A stretch of DNA of 64,000 bases from Haloarcula pelagica (GTDB lineage Archaea > Halobacteriota > Halobacteria > Halobacteriales > Haloarculaceae). Below are positions 22,946 through 32,920 of the stretch, one piece after another. The translations under genes and the position numbers were made by a program. The notes beneath the pieces were generated by a model. The model was not told the origin of the DNA and searched no databases. It saw only the letters and a list, made by a program, of their open reading frames with translations. The stretch covers positions 992,001-1,056,000 of the forward strand of contig NZ_CP126161.1 of the NCBI RefSeq assembly GCF_030127105.1, given 5' to 3'. The stretch's first letter is position 1. Every line of letters starts with the position of its first letter.

Positions 22946-23242
22946 TTAATATCGACCACCAGACACCCCTGTCAGAATGCGGAAAGCCCGCGAATACGGC
23001 ACCGCCGACAGCCACTCGACCAGCTCGTCGGGCTGCTCCCGCAAGACTTCGAAGAAGTGGACCAGGTCCTCGTCGAGGTCGTTGTACACCTCCACCGTAC
23101 TCCGCTCGGTGTCCTTGTTCACCAACACACCCGCGGCGCCGCCGAACACCTCGACGAAACACTCGTGCTCGGGCACCTCCTGCAAAATCCACGACGCGAG
23201 GCGACTCTTCCCACCGGGGAACGGAAAGACGGCATCGCCCAC
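22946..23242 (-). pseudogene. Truncated D12-class adenine-specific DNA methyltransferase
   Basis: 98 aa from GTG 23242. The N-terminus FPFPGGKSRLASWILQEVP and VEVFGGAAGVLVNKD match the AdoMet-binding motifs X and I of Dam-like (MethyltransfD12) enzymes, and VYNDLDEDLVHFFEVLRE fits the following helix. The protein stops soon after LVEWLSAVPYSR, where a full enzyme would continue for about 170 residues to the DPPY catalytic motif, which is absent. The downstream sequence encodes an unrelated transposase remnant, so an insertion or deletion removed the catalytic half. It begins 2 nt before the end of the upstream hypothetical gene's frame, as in an operon. Confidence 0.65.
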
Positions 23243-23244
23243 GA

Positions 23245-23523
23245 TCAGACCTCCTCCACGCCCTCGACGTAGATCCCGTCGAACGCCACTAACAGGTCCA
23301 GGACCCACTCGGGTGGGTCGACATCGACGGCCAACTCCGCGGTCGCGGTCGTCGTCAACAGTCGTGCCACGCCCTCGGCGTCGACGCCAAAGGCCCACGA
23401 CTCGTCGGCTTCGATCTCAACCCGGCCAGCAAAGTCCGGGTCCGAGCGGAACAGTCGAACGACGACGCGCTCCCCATCGATTCGCTCGGTAACAGTGCGG
23501 TGTGGCTGCTGTGTTCGTGCCAT
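23245..23523 (-). CDS. Hypothetical protein upstream of the truncated methylase
   Basis: 92 aa from ATG 23523 (MARTQQPHRTVTE). Acidic with a beta-strand-rich middle (ERVVVRLFRSDPDFAGRVEIEADESWAFGVD) and a C-terminal DPPEWVLDLLVAFDGIYVEGVEEV. I do not recognise it. Its stop is 2 nt before the GTG of the truncated methyltransferase, so they were one transcription unit. Confidence 0.62.
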   Translation of the reverse strand: MARTQQPHRTVTERIDGERVVVRLFRSDPDFAGRVEIEADESWAFGVDAEGVARLLTTTATAELAVDVDPPEWVLDLLVAFDGIYVEGVEEV

Positions 23524-24690: not shown

Positions 24691-24900
24691 TGGTCGTGTG
24701 GGCAGCGGATTCGCCAGGTCGTCGCCAGCAGATCGCCGATGCGCTCGGTATCTGAACCGGAGTCACTGTCGGTCATCCGATCACCCGCGGCCGCGAGGGC
24801 AGCCATCGGCTATTCGTCCATTCGAGTCGGCGACAGTCACCAACAGTCAGCGGGACCATACCAGTCCATCTGCAGAGACGGATATACGCGTCGGCGTGTC

Positions 24901-25146
24901 GTTTCCGGGTTTCCGGAACGGCCCCTTCCTGCGGTTTGCCCGGGTTCCGGAATGACTGACGCCGGCAGAACCCACAGAGAGCCGGGCCGTCGCTCCCGAG
25001 TTCCGGACCCAGCCTCGTCGACAGCTTGGTCGGGTGGCCGTTTCCGGAAAGCGAGTCGAGAGACACGACCGAATTCGCCCCGAGAGCGCCTCACACCCCG
25101 CTCACCAGCCACAACACACGATAGCCACCGACTGTTTCCGGAAACA
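24901..25146. repeat. TTTCCGGAAA-type repeats (putative Orc-binding boxes)
   Basis: Copies are: GTTTCCGGGTTTCCGGAAC at 24901-24919 (tandem); TTCCGGAA at 24945-24952; TTCCGGA at 25001-25007; TTTCCGGAAA at 25041-25050; TGTTTCCGGAAACA at 25133-25146. Spacings vary from 26 to 83 nt. A further copy lies at 27107-27125, ahead of the recA-like/polB operon. Confidence 0.6.
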
Positions 25147-25156
25147 TCCCGGCCAC

Positions 25157-25165
25157 GGTTATATG
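25157..25165 (+). promoter_or_regulatory. TATA-box of orc copy 2
   Basis: GGTTATATG sits 28-36 nt before ATG 25193 and directly downstream of the last palindromic repeat (25133-25146). The palindrome therefore occupies the usual BRE/upstream position and could control this promoter. Confidence 0.55.
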
Positions 25166-25192
25166 CCGGCGCCACGAACGGATCGATAACAG

Positions 25193-26230
25193 ATGATCCG
25201 CGATGCTCGCGTGCTCCGAGCCGGGTTCGTCCCGTCCGAAGTCGAGCATCGGGATGCGGAAGTCAATCACCTCTCGACCGTGCTCCAACCCATCACGGAC
25301 GGCGAGCCGGCCGACACGGCCGTCGTCACGGGTCCCAGCGGCGTTGGCAAGACCTGCATCTCGAAGTTCGTCACCGAACGCCTCCGCGAGGAAGTCCTCG
25401 ATGTCGAGTCCACGTACGTCAACTGCTGGCGGAACTTCACCCGCTACCGCACGCTGTACCAGATCCTCGACGACCTGGGCCAGACGATCAACATCCACCG
25501 CCAGTCCACACCCCACGACGAACTGGTCGATCGCCTCCAGCAGTACGACGGGCCGCGAGCGGTCGTCATCCTCGACGAAGTCGACCAACTCGAAGATCCG
25601 AACCTCATCTACGACCTCCATAGCCTCCCGCAGTTCGCGCTGATCTGCATCGCCAACAGGGAGCAGGACCTGTTCAACAGCGTCGACGAACGGCTCGTGA
25701 GTCGCCTCCGGGCCAGCGAACACGTCCGCCTGGAGCGCTATCACGACCCGGAACTCTACGACATTCTCGGGGCCCGTGCGAAGCGCGGGCTCGACCCGGA
25801 CGTGATCAGCGACGACCAACTCTACCGGATCGCCGACGCCGCCGCCGGCGACGCGCGGCTGGCCATCGGGATGCTCCGGTCGGCCGCCAGCCGCGCCGAC
25901 CGGGAGAGTAAGGATACGATCACCGACAGTATGCTCCTGGACGCGGCCGAAGACGCCCGGACACAGATCAAACAGAAGAGCATCGACTCGCTGACGCCCC
26001 ACCAGCGACTCGTCTACGACATCGTGCGCGAACAGGGGCCGCTCACGCCAAGCGATATCTACGAGCAGTATAGTGAGCAGGCCGACGACCCACGCACCGC
26101 ACGAACCTGTCGGACCTACCTCTCGAAGATGGAGCAGTACAACCTGATCGAGGGAGACGGCACCAGCCGGGATCGAACCTACTCGGTCGTCGATTCGACG
26201 AAGACCTCCGACATCTTCGAGACGGGGTGA
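25193..26230 (+). CDS. Orc1/Cdc6-family AAA+ protein (copy 2)
   Basis: 345 aa. Walker A GPSGVGKT (residues 47-54), Walker B VILDEVDQL (Asp128, Glu129), sensor-2 AAGDARLAIGMLRSA, and a C-terminal winged helix (HQRLVYDIVREQGPLTPSDIYEQY ... YLSKMEQYNLIEGDG). The opening MIRDARVLRAGFVPSEVEHR parallels copy 1 (MITDARALKPDFVPRDLHHR), so the two are paralogues. They share the same N-terminal pattern but have diverged strongly in the middle. It probably binds the neighbouring TTTCCGGAAA boxes. Confidence 0.9.
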   Translation: MIRDARVLRAGFVPSEVEHRDAEVNHLSTVLQPITDGEPADTAVVTGPSGVGKTCISKFVTERLREEVLDVESTYVNCWRNFTRYRTLYQILDDLGQTINIHRQSTPHDELVDRLQQYDGPRAVVILDEVDQLEDPNLIYDLHSLPQFALICIANREQDLFNSVDERLVSRLRASEHVRLERYHDPELYDILGARAKRGLDPDVISDDQLYRIADAAAGDARLAIGMLRSAASRADRESKDTITDSMLLDAAEDARTQIKQKSIDSLTPHQRLVYDIVREQGPLTPSDIYEQYSEQADDPRTARTCRTYLSKMEQYNLIEGDGTSRDRTYSVVDSTKTSDIFETG

Positions 26231-26467
26231 GCGGGTTGGGGCGGTCGTGGGCCACGTAGTCTCGTCCGATTCGGTCCGCAGGGCACACTGTGGTCGGTGA
26301 TCGGTTAATCCGCGGTGATACGGACAGAGCGTAGATGCACCACACGCGCCTCGCTTCCAGGCTAAAATCGACGAACTAACCATTCGGCAGCCATGCGAAC
26401 TATACTATATCTCTGCCTCTGAAACACCGATCTGGGCTTAATAAGTGGTGAGTGACAGAAATGGAAT

Positions 26468-26896
26468 ATGGAAAAGCATCCGCAACCGCAACGAGGGACG
26501 AACGGAGATGTGATCTGGCACCGGGTCGGAGCATTCTTTGTCGACTCGATCCTCATGGGGCTACTCTGGCTTCCAGTTATCGTCGCCGGGGCAGCCCTCG
26601 GCGATATCGGTTCCCTCGTGCTGATGTTCATAGGGCTGGCTGTAACACTCGTGTACGGGTTTCTACTCGAGGGACTGTACGGCTACACGCCGGGGAAATA
26701 CCTACTTGGATTAGTCGTTATCAAGTCCGACGGTTCAAACTGTACGATTGGCGCGTCAGTACTACGGAACCTGTTATGGATCGTTGACTCATTTCCGACG
26801 TTCAATCTCGTCGCAATGGTCTCAATACTGCTTACAGACGACAATCAACGGGTCGGTGACCTCGTTGCGGATACAGTCGTCGTCAAGCAACAGTAA
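26468..26896 (+). CDS. RDD-family membrane protein
   Basis: 142 aa with two or three membrane spans. The family motif is seen as HRVGAFFVDSILMGLLWLP (Arg-Asp pair in the first span), GYTPGKYLLGLVVI and QRVGDLVADTVVV. The GC content and third-position bias are lower than in neighbours, which suggests recent arrival. AT-rich DNA (about 26395-26460, with ACTATACTATATC) precedes it and could serve as promoter or duplex-unwinding element. The transported substrate, if any, is unknown. Confidence 0.8.
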   Translation: MEKHPQPQRGTNGDVIWHRVGAFFVDSILMGLLWLPVIVAGAALGDIGSLVLMFIGLAVTLVYGFLLEGLYGYTPGKYLLGLVVIKSDGSNCTIGASVLRNLLWIVDSFPTFNLVAMVSILLTDDNQRVGDLVADTVVVKQQ

Positions 26897-27106
26897 TCCG
26901 AACGGATCATCTCTGTTTGCCCTGTACTGACCGATTCGCCTGCCTGAAATCTGGACATGGTACAGTGCGCGCCCTGTTTACCACCTACGTCTCGCAACGA
27001 CCGCGAGTTCCACCAAAACCCTCGATTCAGGAACCGGGGCTGGAAACGCATAGCGAAGCGGCACAAACCCCCTGACGGCAGCAGGCTACACCACGACTCC
27101 CGGCGC

Positions 27107-27125
27107 TTTCTGGAAATCCGGAAAC
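27107..27125. repeat. Isolated TTTCCGGAAA-type box ahead of the recA-like/polB operon
   Basis: TTTCTGGAAATCCGGAAAC combines a near-complete TTTC-TGGAAA and a CCGGAAAC half, the same element as in the orc intergenic region. It lies 43 nt before the recA-like gene, so the Orc proteins could regulate that operon or the box could belong to the origin. Confidence 0.5.
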
Positions 27126-27167
27126 GACACGCCTCGCCTTACGGAACCGGCCTGTCTCTATGTGAGT

Positions 27168-28079
27168 ATGGATCGATCGTTGGCGCCGGACCAACCGACG
27201 CGAAACGCTGCGACGAACCGCTCGATAGTCGACGACCAAGACATCCTCCTGCCCTCGCTGGATCCAGGGCTCACACTGTTGGAAATCGACGGTGGCCGAG
27301 GCGTACCAGTGCTGCAATCCCTGGTCCTGGACCGCCTCCTGATGCGCGAGGGCCACGTGTTCTGGGCCGACGCACAGGGGTACGCGACGACGACCGCGCT
27401 GGCCAGGTTGGCACCCAGTCGTCGACTCCTCGATCGGATCCACGTCGCACGTGCCTTCACAGCCTACCAGCACTACAGCATCGTCCAGGATCTCGACCGG
27501 GCCGTGGCCGACCACATCCAGACCGAAACCACGCGCGACCCCATCGAAACGGTTCGTGACCGCCGCATAGACGGCCCCGACACCGACGGCGAGCGCGGCC
27601 ACATCGAGCCGACACTCGTCGTTGCCCCGGCCCTGGATACGTTCTACCGGGCGAACGAGACCCTCGGTGATGAGCGAGCCAAGACCCTCCAGACGAGGGG
27701 GCTCGCAGCACTCGCACGGTACGCCGACGGCTACGACGTGCCGGTACTCGTTACCCGCTCGGCCGACGACGCGTTCGCCGCACCGATCGCCCAGCGGGCG
27801 AACACCCGACTCCAGTGTGAACTGACCGACCTCGGGCCACGCTTCGTCGGCGAGGAGTTCGAGACGACCGTCTATCCGGTCAGCGACGGGGCCTACCAGA
27901 CGACCTTGGCCTACTGGCGCGACATTCTCGCCCACCGGGCCGACCAGGCCGGCATCGAACCCAGCGACACCTCCACGAAAGACGACGAGCCGTCGATCGG
28001 GACCGCCGACGGTGGCGTCACGATGCGCACCGACCCGGTCGCGGACGCACTCAGTGAATCGTCCGCGGGAGGGTGGTGA
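27168..28079 (+). CDS. Degenerate RecA/RadA-like protein of the polB cassette
   Basis: 303 aa. LTLLEIDGGRGVPVLQSLVL occupies the place of the RadA P-loop strand, but the GKT/S is absent. TLVVAPALDTFYR sits where Walker B is expected, with its Asp shifted. GHVFWADAQGYATTTALARLA and VPVLVTRSADDAF also follow the RecA-fold order. The last 45 residues are low-complexity and acidic. It overlaps the next gene by 1 nt (TGATG), so it forms an operon with the small protein and the polymerase. A GTG at 27162 is an alternative start. Probably a non-ATPase accessory factor; the function is inferred from context only. Confidence 0.68.
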   Translation: MDRSLAPDQPTRNAATNRSIVDDQDILLPSLDPGLTLLEIDGGRGVPVLQSLVLDRLLMREGHVFWADAQGYATTTALARLAPSRRLLDRIHVARAFTAYQHYSIVQDLDRAVADHIQTETTRDPIETVRDRRIDGPDTDGERGHIEPTLVVAPALDTFYRANETLGDERAKTLQTRGLAALARYADGYDVPVLVTRSADDAFAAPIAQRANTRLQCELTDLGPRFVGEEFETTVYPVSDGAYQTTLAYWRDILAHRADQAGIEPSDTSTKDDEPSIGTADGGVTMRTDPVADALSESSAGGW

Positions 28080-28369
28080 TGGGCCGCACGAACCCGACCT
28101 TTCGCGATGCGCTTCGGGCCATCGAGGAGCGCTGGCAGGACTACCGACGAGCGCTCCGCAACCGTGACCAGCCCTACTTCGACCAGTTGTTCGGCTACGC
28201 CCGGGAGCATGCGGATGCGGCCGGGCTGTTGAACCACTCGACCCCGCATCTTCCGGCACTCCTGTCGATCGATCTGGAGCAAGAACGCCGGCTCGACGAA
28301 CACGACGAGCGGCTGACCGAACTGGAGGCCACACTCACCGACGGTGGAGCCACCGACCGGGAGGAGTAG
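28079..28369 (+). CDS. Small helical protein between recA-like and polB genes
   Basis: 96 aa, charged and predicted almost wholly helical (FRDALRAIEERWQDYRRALR, then a C-terminal coiled-coil stretch QERRLDEHDERLTELEATL). There are no catalytic motifs. Its ATG overlaps the upstream stop, and its TAG is 1 nt before the polymerase GTG. Position suggests a bridging or scaffolding subunit of the recA-like/polymerase pair. Confidence 0.72.
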   Translation: MGRTNPTFRDALRAIEERWQDYRRALRNRDQPYFDQLFGYAREHADAAGLLNHSTPHLPALLSIDLEQERRLDEHDERLTELEATLTDGGATDREE

Positions 28370-28370
28370 C

Positions 28371-30566
28371 GTGGTGTTCACGCTCGATTACCTCGATGAT
28401 GGGCGCGTCATCGAGTGGACCGTCACCGACGATGGGCCTGAATCACGCGTCCGGACCGGGTACACGCCGCGGTTCTACGTCGCACCGCGGACCGCCGAGT
28501 CGGACGGCGACGTGTCGGCGGTCGAGTCGGCGTATCGACGACACCCCGAGGTCGTCCAGACGAAACTCGTCGAGCGACGGCCTGGCTTCCGCCGGGACCG
28601 TGAACAGGTCCTAGCCGTCGATGTCGCACATATCGACCGCGTCCGGCCGCTGGCGAGCAACGTCCACGAGCAACCGGAGACGCCGGTGGGCGATCTCGCC
28701 TGCTTCAACGTCGATTTCTCCCGGCAGTTCCGCTACTGCCTGGAGGAGGGCATCGACCCCACGCCGGCCGGCTCGCTCTCGACGCTTCGGCTGGGCGTTC
28801 CAATGGCCGAGCGTGGCGCGGAATCGTACGACCAGCTCGTCGTCGACGGGGAGACAGTCTCCGCCCCGCCGGGTGACATCGTCGACAGGGTCACAACGGC
28901 GGTCGCCACCATCGACCCCGACGTACTGCTCTGCTCGACGGCGGAGCTCGTCCCGACACTGTCCGAGATGGCTGCCGAGGCCGGACGCCCCGAGTTTTCG
29001 CTGAGCCGGTGGCCCGATGCCGACTATCAACAGCTCGCCAGTCGGTCGACCTACGCCAGCTACGGCCGTGTCGGGCACTCGCCGGCCCGGTACAACGTGC
29101 CCGGCCGGGTGCTCATCGACGAGTCGAACACGTTCTTCCACAGCGAGACCAACTTGGATGGCATGATCGACCTGGTCGGTCGGTCACGGAAGCCACTGCA
29201 GGAACTCAGTTGGGCGTCGATCGGGAACGTCCTCACCGCGATCCAGATCTGCGAAGCGGACCGTCGTGACGTGCTGACGCCCTGGAACTCCTGGCGCCAC
29301 GAATTCTTCAAGCCGATGGGGACGCTCCACGATGCCGACCGCGGCGGGTTCATCTTCTCGCCGGAAGTCGGCGTCCACGAGAACGTCCACGAACTCGACT
29401 TCGCGAGTCTCTACCCCAACATCATCTGTACCCGGAACGTCTCGCCGGATGTCATCCGATGTGACTGCCACAGCGACCGGGCCGACGTTCCCGAGATGGG
29501 GTATTCGATCTGTGACGAGCGCGGCTACCTCGTCGACGTACTCGAGCCGCTCATCAGCGACCGACGGGAGATCAAGGCCAAAATCGAGCGCGAGGCAGCG
29601 AAGGCCGACCCCGACGAGGCCCGGATCGCCGAACTCGAGGGGCGGTCCGGCGCGATCAAGTGGATCCTCGTCTCCTGTTTTGGGTACCAGGGCTTCTCGA
29701 ACGCGAAGTTCGGGCGGATCGAGTGCCACGAGGCGATCAACGCCTACGCTCGCGACATCCTGCTCACGGCCAAGCAACGGCTGGAAGCCGGTGGCTGGCG
29801 CGTCGTCCACGGGATCGTCGATTCAATCTGGGTGACCCCCGACCCGGACGTTTCCGAGGCCGACCGCCAAGAACTCACGACGATCGCGAGCGAACTCACC
29901 GAGGAGATCGGCATTCGACTGGAGTACGAGGCCCACTACGACTGGGTAGCCTTTGTCCCACAGCGCACCAGCGAGGCAGGGGCGCTCACGAAGTACTTCG
30001 GGAAAGTAAGTGACGCCGAGGAATTCAAGCTCCGGGGAATCGAGGCCCGACAGCGCTCAACACCGCCGTTTATTGAGAAGGTCCAGCGTGACTGTCTCGA
30101 ACGGTTCGACGCGACGCGGGATCCCGATGTAGTGATCGAGCGCCTAGAGCGGGCGATCCGCGCGCTCCAGCACGGCGCCGTCGACCCGTCCACGCTCGTC
30201 GAACGGAATCGTGTCTCGAAACCACGCGAGGGGTACACGCAGTATACACAGAACGTCGCAGCGCTGGAGCGAGCCAGTGACCAGGGGATCGCGATTCATC
30301 CCGGCCAGGATGTCGAATACGTCGTCGTCGACGACGCGAAATCCTCCCGCGAACGTGTCGCGCTCGCCCACGAGGCACCGGAGTGCTACGATGCCGACTA
30401 CTACGAGACGCAGTTGCGCCGGGCGATCGAGAGTGTCCTGTCGCCGGTGGGTTGGGATCGAGACGACATCTCGGACGCCCTCTCGGACGTACAGACGATG
30501 ACGATTCCAGACTACACGTACGCCTCGCCGGACTGGGTCGGGACCTGTGCGACAGATGGAGAGTGA
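28371..30566 (+). CDS. B-family DNA polymerase, PolB2-like with altered active sites
   Basis: 731 aa from GTG 28371. Palm motif A is DFASLYPNII (Asp343), motif B is KWILVSCFGYQGFSNAKFG (Lys430), and motif C reads HGIVDSIWV (Asp484), where the canonical YGDTDS first Asp is replaced by Ile. In the N-terminal exonuclease-like region none of the usual DxE, NxxxFD or YxxxD motifs is visible, so proofreading should be absent. Archaeal PolB2 proteins are described as an inactivated or specialised (possibly translesion) lineage, and this fits them. Cys residues around RCDCHSDRADVPEMGYSICDERG lie in the insertion after motif A. The gene ends an operon with the recA-like and small genes. Confidence 0.85.
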   Translation: MVFTLDYLDDGRVIEWTVTDDGPESRVRTGYTPRFYVAPRTAESDGDVSAVESAYRRHPEVVQTKLVERRPGFRRDREQVLAVDVAHIDRVRPLASNVHEQPETPVGDLACFNVDFSRQFRYCLEEGIDPTPAGSLSTLRLGVPMAERGAESYDQLVVDGETVSAPPGDIVDRVTTAVATIDPDVLLCSTAELVPTLSEMAAEAGRPEFSLSRWPDADYQQLASRSTYASYGRVGHSPARYNVPGRVLIDESNTFFHSETNLDGMIDLVGRSRKPLQELSWASIGNVLTAIQICEADRRDVLTPWNSWRHEFFKPMGTLHDADRGGFIFSPEVGVHENVHELDFASLYPNIICTRNVSPDVIRCDCHSDRADVPEMGYSICDERGYLVDVLEPLISDRREIKAKIEREAAKADPDEARIAELEGRSGAIKWILVSCFGYQGFSNAKFGRIECHEAINAYARDILLTAKQRLEAGGWRVVHGIVDSIWVTPDPDVSEADRQELTTIASELTEEIGIRLEYEAHYDWVAFVPQRTSEAGALTKYFGKVSDAEEFKLRGIEARQRSTPPFIEKVQRDCLERFDATRDPDVVIERLERAIRALQHGAVDPSTLVERNRVSKPREGYTQYTQNVAALERASDQGIAIHPGQDVEYVVVDDAKSSRERVALAHEAPECYDADYYETQLRRAIESVLSPVGWDRDDISDALSDVQTMTIPDYTYASPDWVGTCATDGE

Positions 30567-31069: not shown

Positions 31070-31576
31070 ATGCAGCTCAAGCAACTGTTCAATGACGATG
31101 ACGCCGTGTCGCCGGTTATCGGCGTCATCCTGATGGTCGCGATTACGGTGATTCTCGCCGCCGTGATTGCATCGTTCGTCCTCGGACTCGGGGACCAGAC
31201 ACAGAATGCTACGCCGCAGGCCAGCTTCTCGTTCGATTACCAAGCGAATAGCAACATCGCCTCTAATCTCGGTACTGGCAACGTCTCGAATACGGACGGC
31301 AACCTGACCATTACGCACGACGGGGGTGATTCAATCGCTGCCGACGAAGTGTATGTACGGGGTGAATTTGACTCGGGCGCGAGCGGAAATTGGGGCACGA
31401 ATGGGAACTGGACGAACGCGGCAATCACCAGCAGTCCCGGCCCGACCAGCGATATCAGGGCGGGCAACAACGCGAAGGTGCCTGTCGGCTCTGCCTATGA
31501 CATCCGCGTCATCTACGAAGCTGCTGAGGGCGACAGCTCGGCCACACTCGGCCAAGACACCGGTCCCGACGCGTAA
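31070..31576 (+). CDS. Type IV pilin (haloarchaeal PilA-like)
   Basis: 168-aa secreted pilin. A short charged leader (MQLKQLFNDDDAVSPVIG) precedes a hydrophobic helix VILMVAITVILAAVIASFVLG, the class III signal and assembly domain of haloarchaeal pilins, processed by PibD. The mature domain is Ser/Asn/Thr/Gly-rich with many N-x-S/T sequons (for example NATPQ, NVSNT), suited to N-glycosylation. GC is lower than in core genes. No pilus motor genes are nearby, so it would depend on machinery elsewhere. Confidence 0.85.
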   Translation: MQLKQLFNDDDAVSPVIGVILMVAITVILAAVIASFVLGLGDQTQNATPQASFSFDYQANSNIASNLGTGNVSNTDGNLTITHDGGDSIAADEVYVRGEFDSGASGNWGTNGNWTNAAITSSPGPTSDIRAGNNAKVPVGSAYDIRVIYEAAEGDSSATLGQDTGPDA

Positions 31577-32248: not shown

Positions 32249-32515
32249 ATGTCCAAGTCAACAGACGAACGCGGACGGATCTACCTCCCGAAAGATGTTC
32301 GTGAGCGGTTCGGTGACCAGTATCGAATCGTCGAACTCCCAAGCCATGTCGCGCTCTTCCCCGTCGACGAGGATCCGCTGGAGGGGCTTCGAGCGGCTGT
32401 TGGAGATGCCTTTGCAGAGACGGATGCCGGCGAGTTGAAGACACAAGCACGCGAGGCAATCTCACGAGAGGTTCGAACGGAAGCAGAAAGCCGGACACAG
32501 GACAGCGAGGAGTAA
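32249..32515 (+). CDS. vapB: AbrB/SpoVT-type antitoxin
   Basis: 88 aa. The N-terminal half is a swapped-hairpin AbrB domain: MSKSTDERGRIYLPKDVRERFG then YRIVELPSHVALFPVDEDP. The C-terminal half is acidic/helical (TQAREAISREVRTEAES) and fits toxin binding. It lies 3 nt before the PIN toxin, so this is a second vapBC pair in the window, of a different antitoxin class from the one at 14.4 kb. Confidence 0.83.
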   Translation: MSKSTDERGRIYLPKDVRERFGDQYRIVELPSHVALFPVDEDPLEGLRAAVGDAFAETDAGELKTQAREAISREVRTEAESRTQDSEE

Positions 32516-32518
32516 GCT

Positions 32519-32920
32519 GTGTACGTCGAGACCGACTTTCTCATTGTACTGGTGAAAGACGACGACTGGCTACAGGACGCCGCGATCACCGCTCTCGAAG
32601 AGCACGACGATATCCATACCTCGATACTCGCGTACGCCGAGGTTCTCGTGTTGTTCTACGACCGCGAAGCCGCCGAATATGATATCGATGCGCCGCGCGC
32701 GATCACCAATCTACTCGAACTGGTCCCGATCGTACCGGAAGAGCATGAGGATGCGGTCTTGGCCGCCGCAGCGTTTCTCGACGAGTACGACCTCACTCCG
32801 TTCGATGCGCTCCACGCCGGACTCGTCACGACCGGGGAAGAGCGTGTCCTCTCGACCGAGCAGGACTACGACACTGTCGGCCTGGATCGTCTCCCCTTGG
32901 ATCCTGAATCCCCTGACTGA
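32519..32920 (+). CDS. vapC: PIN-domain toxin VapC
   Basis: 133 aa from GTG 32519. PIN residues are visible: Asp5 in VETDFLIVL, Glu in AYAEVLVLFYDR, Asp in LTPFDALHAGLV and Asp in STEQDYDTVG. The start is 3 nt after the antitoxin stop. Putative ribonuclease; the target is unknown. Confidence 0.83.
   Translation: MYVETDFLIVLVKDDDWLQDAAITALEEHDDIHTSILAYAEVLVLFYDREAAEYDIDAPRAITNLLELVPIVPEEHEDAVLAAAAFLDEYDLTPFDALHAGLVTTGEERVLSTEQDYDTVGLDRLPLDPESPD

Follow-up and report, generated by a model that had tools for sequence, protein, structure and literature searches.

A GGAA-repeat operator shared by orc1/cdc6 genes and the PolB2 mutasome operon of Haloarcula pelagica points to a candidate Orc-type regulator

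RESULTS

The window analyzed here is a 64,000-nucleotide stretch of Haloarcula pelagica DNA (C1:992001-1056000, within a 4.46-Mb haloarchaeal genome). It carries two divergent orc1/cdc6 genes, termed OrcM and OrcP, which are separated by a 502-bp gap, and an operon encoding a RadA paralogue (iRadA), a small partner protein (PPB2), and the B-family DNA polymerase PolB2 (Table 1). The subject of this study is an operator of about 37 bp that precedes both orc genes and the operon. A preliminary description of this DNA had already reported two divergent orc1/cdc6 genes around the gap, and both products indeed have AAA and Cdc6-lid domains. They are 35% identical, and 16 stretches of the genome match OrcP, in which the Walker A and B motifs are intact (GPSGxGKT and LDExD are conserved) and a basic C-terminal winged-helix segment is present. 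The same description had joined the orc and RecA-like/PolB genes in a single cassette; the genes are real, but they do not form one contiguous operon, as an unrelated gene intervenes between OrcP and iRadA.

Table 1. Coordinates of the operators, genes, and related loci
Feature	Position	Strand	Remarks
OrcM operator + TATA-like box, GTTCCGGAAACCCGGAAACGACACGCCGACGCGTATA	24883..24919	-	Position weight matrix (PWM) score 38.4 bits; R1 E 2e-5 in own genome
Degenerate extra copy TTCCGGAA, orc-orc gap	24946..24953	+	Without TATA at fixed spacing
Extra copy, exact TTTCCGGAAA, orc-orc gap	25041..25050	+	Without TATA at fixed spacing
OrcP promoter operator, TTTCCGGAAAC (25135-25145) + TTATA	25127..25163	+	PWM 16.2 bits; R1 E 0.001
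Mutasome operator + TATA-like box, TTTCTGGAAATCCGGAAACGACACGCCTCGCCTTACG	27107..27143	+	PWM 41.2 bits; top match in genome, R1 E 8.9e-6
OrcM, orc1/cdc6 paralogue, 331 aa	23695..24690	-	AAA_22 + Cdc6_lid domains
OrcP, Orc1/Cdc6-family ATPase, proposed regulator	25193..26230	+	AAA + Cdc6-lid domains
RDD-family membrane gene, unrelated	26468-26896		Between OrcP and iRadA
iRadA, RadA paralogue without Walker A	27168..28079	+	
PPB2, small PolB2 partner protein	28079..28369	+	Kept in 58/62 loci
PolB2, exonuclease-dead B-family polymerase	28374..30566	+	VxD in motif C
Second orc/iRadA/PPB2/polB2 locus, same genome	C4, L037:11648-16738		
Stand-alone DEDD exonuclease, other loci	L157:4057-4701; L161:3342-3986; L264:390-1088; L189:1586-2227; others		Boxed or in split mutasome operon

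The earlier picture of a RecA-like protein without Walker A and a polymerase without proofreading motifs was borne out. The iRadA profile matches RadA structures (E 5e-11). Its structure model is of low confidence (predicted local distance difference test [pLDDT], 67). Walker A GKT/S was absent from all 12 iRadA homologues checked. PPB2 matched no Pfam family. In PolB2, the exonuclease motifs are gone, with no Exo I DxE, and the catalytic DxD is altered as well: HGIVDSIW replaces the DTD motif of motif C, leaving the second Asp invariant. Conservation of the gene order in other genomes had been set beforehand as a test that could refute the description. The order proved to be kept: of 62 loci with PolB2, 58 also hold iRadA and PPB2, and an OrcP-type gene often precedes them on the same strand. 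As judged by this comparison of loci, the three genes are shown to be one conserved unit.

This unit corresponds to the PolB2 mutasome (PMC4104785, PMC11791011), and in Sulfolobus, PolB2/Dpo2 is described as acting in translesion synthesis and extension and as being damage inducible (PMC7390963, PMC8764526). The two comparative studies also noted orc1/cdc6 genes beside archaeal polB2 (PMC4104785, PMC11791011), and as early as 2007, an orc gene was recorded next to polB2 of Halobacterium NRC-1 (PMC1906834). The suggestion of a translesion module was right and already published (PMC4104785, PMC11791011, PMC8764526), and neither the module nor its link to orc genes is new. The window locus shares with the published mutasome the gene order, the inactive RadA, the nearby orc1/cdc6 genes, the exonuclease-dead PolB2, and the replaced first Asp of DxD. 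It differs in what can now be said of its control. Published work infers regulation from neighborhood only, whereas we define an operator common to both orc genes, the operon, the second locus on C4, and other haloarchaea, together with a target list and a candidate reader. A further difference, treated below, is a stand-alone PolB-type exonuclease as an added partner in some haloarchaea.

Motif discovery in 62 polB2 loci yielded a 37-bp element with the consensus TTTCCGGAAATCCGGAAACGACCCGCCTCCGCTTATC (29 bits), in which two GGAA units 8 to 9 bp apart are followed by CGACMC and then, at fixed spacing, by a TATA-like box. At all three window promoters, 13 nt separate GGAAAC from the TATA-like box, as read from the sequence. 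The preliminary description had placed the same box before the orc genes and the operon. A longer shared element is present there, but the box sequence itself varies: the window has just two exact copies of TTTCCGGAAA, at 25041 and 25135 in the orc-orc gap, and the mutasome operon has TTTCTGGAAA at 27107. With at most one mismatch to TTTCCGGAAA, the window holds 5 matches versus 0.41 expected, a number reached in 0 of 100 shuffles. The OrcM and mutasome sites also form a 26-nt inverted repeat (24893-24918 versus 27108-27133, 24/26 matching). The OrcM operator lies 157 bp upstream of the OrcM start codon, and the OrcP promoter holds one of only three exact GGAAAC-N13-TTATA sequences in the whole genome. 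When the genome was searched with a sequence-only covariance model, exactly six sites had an E value below 0.01. Each belongs to one of the two orc/polB2 loci, three lying before OrcM, OrcP, and iRadA in the window and three before orc, iRadA, and polB2 at the C4 locus; the next match had an E value of 0.12. By this comparison, the predicted target list in the window genome is shown to be limited to orc genes and the mutasome.

The repeats in the orc-orc gap had initially been taken as origin-like and the operon as part of a replication cassette. Haloarchaeal orc genes do adjoin origins with origin-recognition boxes (ORBs) (PMC3936714), the likeness extending to orc genes beside a repeat-bearing gap, and this one gap holds several GGAA boxes. 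In contrast to those origins, however, the 502-bp gap has no AT-rich unwinding element by composition (36.5% AT, compared with 33.1% in the window as a whole; the most AT-rich 50 bp of the gap reach 48%, less than the 56% that marks the 99th percentile of the window), and the sites are locked to TATA boxes and recur as single copies at non-orc promoters, including unlinked iRadA and polB2 promoters. Lacking an AT-rich stretch, and with repeats that are, as their sequence context indicates, promoter elements, the gap does not look like an origin. We rejected the origin hypothesis on composition and promoter locking and regard it as very improbable.

Across 80 named loci (1.05 Mb) from Halorubrum, Haloarcula, Halobacterium, Natrinema, and many other genera, 124 operator sites were found, compared with 0 for the reversed and five shuffled matrices; since some of these genomes overlap the motif discovery set, this count is a check of breadth and not a fully independent test. 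Directly before iRadA (59), PolB2 (41), or OrcP (16) lie 116 of the sites, at a near-constant distance, and the remaining 8 precede nothing recognized. Halobacterium NRC-1 has boxes before both the OrcP orthologue (VNG_RS10865) and polB2 (VNG_RS11805). As VNG_RS10865 is present on pNRC100 as well as pNRC200, it is probably orc9, for which a deletion has been published (PMC1906834). In viral contigs, no PolB2 relative was found; the strict operator pattern occurred in one of them and the other operator form in none. The position of the box depends on operon structure. When polB2 directly follows PPB2, it has its own box in 0 of 82 cases, but when the two are separated by other genes it has one in 33 of 38, and when no PPB2 is found upstream, in 16 of 22. 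The C4 locus is an example, an unrelated minus-strand gene splitting PPB2 from a polB2 with its own box. Since polB2 has its own box when split from PPB2, the operator marks where transcription units begin and has apparently been retained by selection.

Which protein reads the box? Its distribution in 116 genomes points to OrcP: the box is present in 65 of 71 genomes with OrcP and in 11 of 45 without. Among PolB2-positive genomes, these figures are 58/63 and 7/20 (P = 8e-7), and among PolB2-negative genomes, they are 7/8 and 4/25 (P = 5e-4). Without OrcP, PolB2 does not predict the box (P = 0.18), and OrcP genes away from polB2 keep it in about 13 of 20 sampled. The box follows the OrcP-type orc gene, not polB2. 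Promoters of one genome have operator dialects in common: in two genomes, the orc and iRadA promoters both have altered repeat units, TTCTGGCAC in G159 and TCTGGAC in G023. Furthermore, an Asp at one position in the RTxRxYL segment of the winged helix is found in 5 of 6 OrcP genes with CTGG operators and in 0 of 34 others (n = 40 with a site). This association (Fisher P = 9e-6) was the best of 1,577 column-residue tests, and the combination is found at no fewer than two points in the tree. The evidence linking the box to OrcP is correlational, in part post hoc, and not phylogenetically independent, yet all of it points to OrcP. The comparison of loci and genomes shows, in short, that one GGAA-repeat operator, placed immediately before the TATA-like box, is common to the mutasome unit and the OrcP gene and that this putative operator travels and covaries with OrcP.

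DISCUSSION

We consider the locus to combine, with a probability of roughly 60%, a PolB2 mutasome operon and the gene of its regulator, OrcP acting as an autoregulated Orc-type transcription factor and not as an initiator. OrcP would bind the operator via its winged helix and control the promoters of its own gene and of the mutasome by acting at the TFB/TBP site. A DNA damage signal, perhaps transmitted through the ATP state of OrcP, may then turn on the error-prone polymerase. The notion that the module is governed by its own Orc, put forward in the preliminary description, is supported in the form of transcriptional control by the plus-strand orc gene, the evidence being comparative.

Several observations weigh against this assignment. 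Seven PolB2-positive genomes have the box but no OrcP orthologue, and OrcP also resembles initiator Orc1 proteins. Two reports on UV arrays of Halobacterium NRC-1 mention neither polB2 nor orc genes. The covariation test was post hoc and the sequences are related. Lastly, by inspection, the ANTTTC box (damage-responsive element, DDRE) of Sulfolobus is absent from the window operators.

Another conserved transcription factor might read the box, the orc gene being merely one of its targets, as the seven genomes without an OrcP orthologue could indicate. We think this unlikely, given that the box tracks OrcP even in genomes devoid of PolB2, that the dialects covary with a residue of the OrcP winged helix, and that no other gene was seen traveling with the box. 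Haloarchaea have many TFB paralogues, and conservation extends to the TATA-like box at fixed spacing; hence, the element could also be a core promoter feature, a specialized TFB recognition element (BRE) for a particular TFB, that functions without a dedicated regulator. However, the repeated GGAA units extend to some 30 bp before the TATA-like box and vary in concert, and the element is associated with the presence of OrcP, which leaves this explanation with little probability.

The proposed role of OrcP as a transcription factor is reminiscent of Orc1-2 of Sulfolobus/Saccharolobus, whose ATPase, ISM (initiator-specific motif), and winged-helix parts act at its own and at other damage promoters (PMC9738581). 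Both are Orc1/Cdc6-type ATPases with a winged helix and have an element, a putative binding site in the case of OrcP, on their own promoter; the Orc1-2 element is also found on promoters of DNA damage genes, and PolB2/Dpo2 is among the damage-inducible genes there. In contrast, the haloarchaeal operator is a GGAA direct repeat with an 8- to 9-bp period instead of ANTTTC, its targets in the window genome are only orc genes and the mutasome, and the damage response is inferred. As the ANTTTC box is not used here, our claim is that OrcP may work like Orc1-2, as a haloarchaeal counterpart with its own operator, and not that it is a member of that system. Likewise, bacterial mutasomes under LexA, in which PolB2 operons occur with lexA (PMC11791011), combine an error-prone polymerase, a RecA-like partner, and an adjacent regulator gene, but the regulator proposed here is an Orc-type ATPase.

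In Halobacterium, a UV-B motif, TTTCACTTTCA, has been described for radA1, top6B, vng17, and vng280 (PMC2556686). Its sequence is unlike the GGAA box, and the motif or near matches to it lie at some promoters that lack that box, upstream of orc (L072, L084, and L315) and of iRadA (L092, L090, and L097). Because of this location, it may represent a parallel or second circuit. Within the motif, ACTTTC matches the ANTTTC element of Sulfolobus. It was also found at promoters of further orc families (4/20 versus 0.5 expected), a lead that these families might be under its control.

To our knowledge, most of the many orc1/cdc6 genes of haloarchaea are without a known job, and we know of no established regulator of the haloarchaeal DNA damage response. 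With the operator, a candidate regulator that can be named, and few predicted targets, orc function and damage regulation both become testable, in part by means of a published deletion strain. If the role of OrcP is confirmed, Orc-type transcriptional control of mutagenic polymerases would extend beyond Crenarchaeota to haloarchaea, paralleling control by LexA in bacteria. More tentatively, and with the odds rather against it, some surplus orc1/cdc6 genes may be SOS-like transcription factors, each with its own repeat operator, and the PolB2 mutasome that they control could receive a detached B-family proofreading exonuclease in trans, resulting in a damage-inducible polymerase with optional proofreading.

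This exonuclease, of about 214 residues, is preceded by boxes at L157, L161, and L264, and at 23 loci it is found ahead of a polB2 gene separated from PPB2. The DEDD residues of the protein are invariant, and all 50 listed PDB matches of its structure model (pLDDT 86), from E 6e-10 on, are B-family polymerases. It could edit in trans for the exonuclease-dead PolB2. The family occurs in 37 of 116 genomes; the window genome has a copy (C1:2790448) with no box nearby. Thus, the exonuclease appears to join the regulon in some genomes and is not a universal member.

Box-like sites were also seen elsewhere. Tyrosine recombinases (integrases) of one type are located downstream of such sites at L154, L263, L266, L267, L270, and L272, several of which end in CTAAG and not in a TATA-like box; they possibly represent integrative elements coupled to the same switch. 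In G086 (L158:1014 onward), a box precedes a radical SAM gene, and a gene for TcmP (three-Cys-motif partner) comes next. Spore photoproduct lyase was considered for the former and rejected, NCBIfam giving weak radical SAM matches and the TcmP neighbor instead.

Around the window locus, some further genes were recognized by eye. On the minus strand, 22946-23398 resembles the N-terminal part of a DNA adenine methylase in truncated form (FPFPGGKS...FVEVFGG). Downstream of polB2, the stretches 31070-31576 and 32249-32920 hold a type IV pilin-like N terminus and an AbrB-like/PIN-like gene pair.

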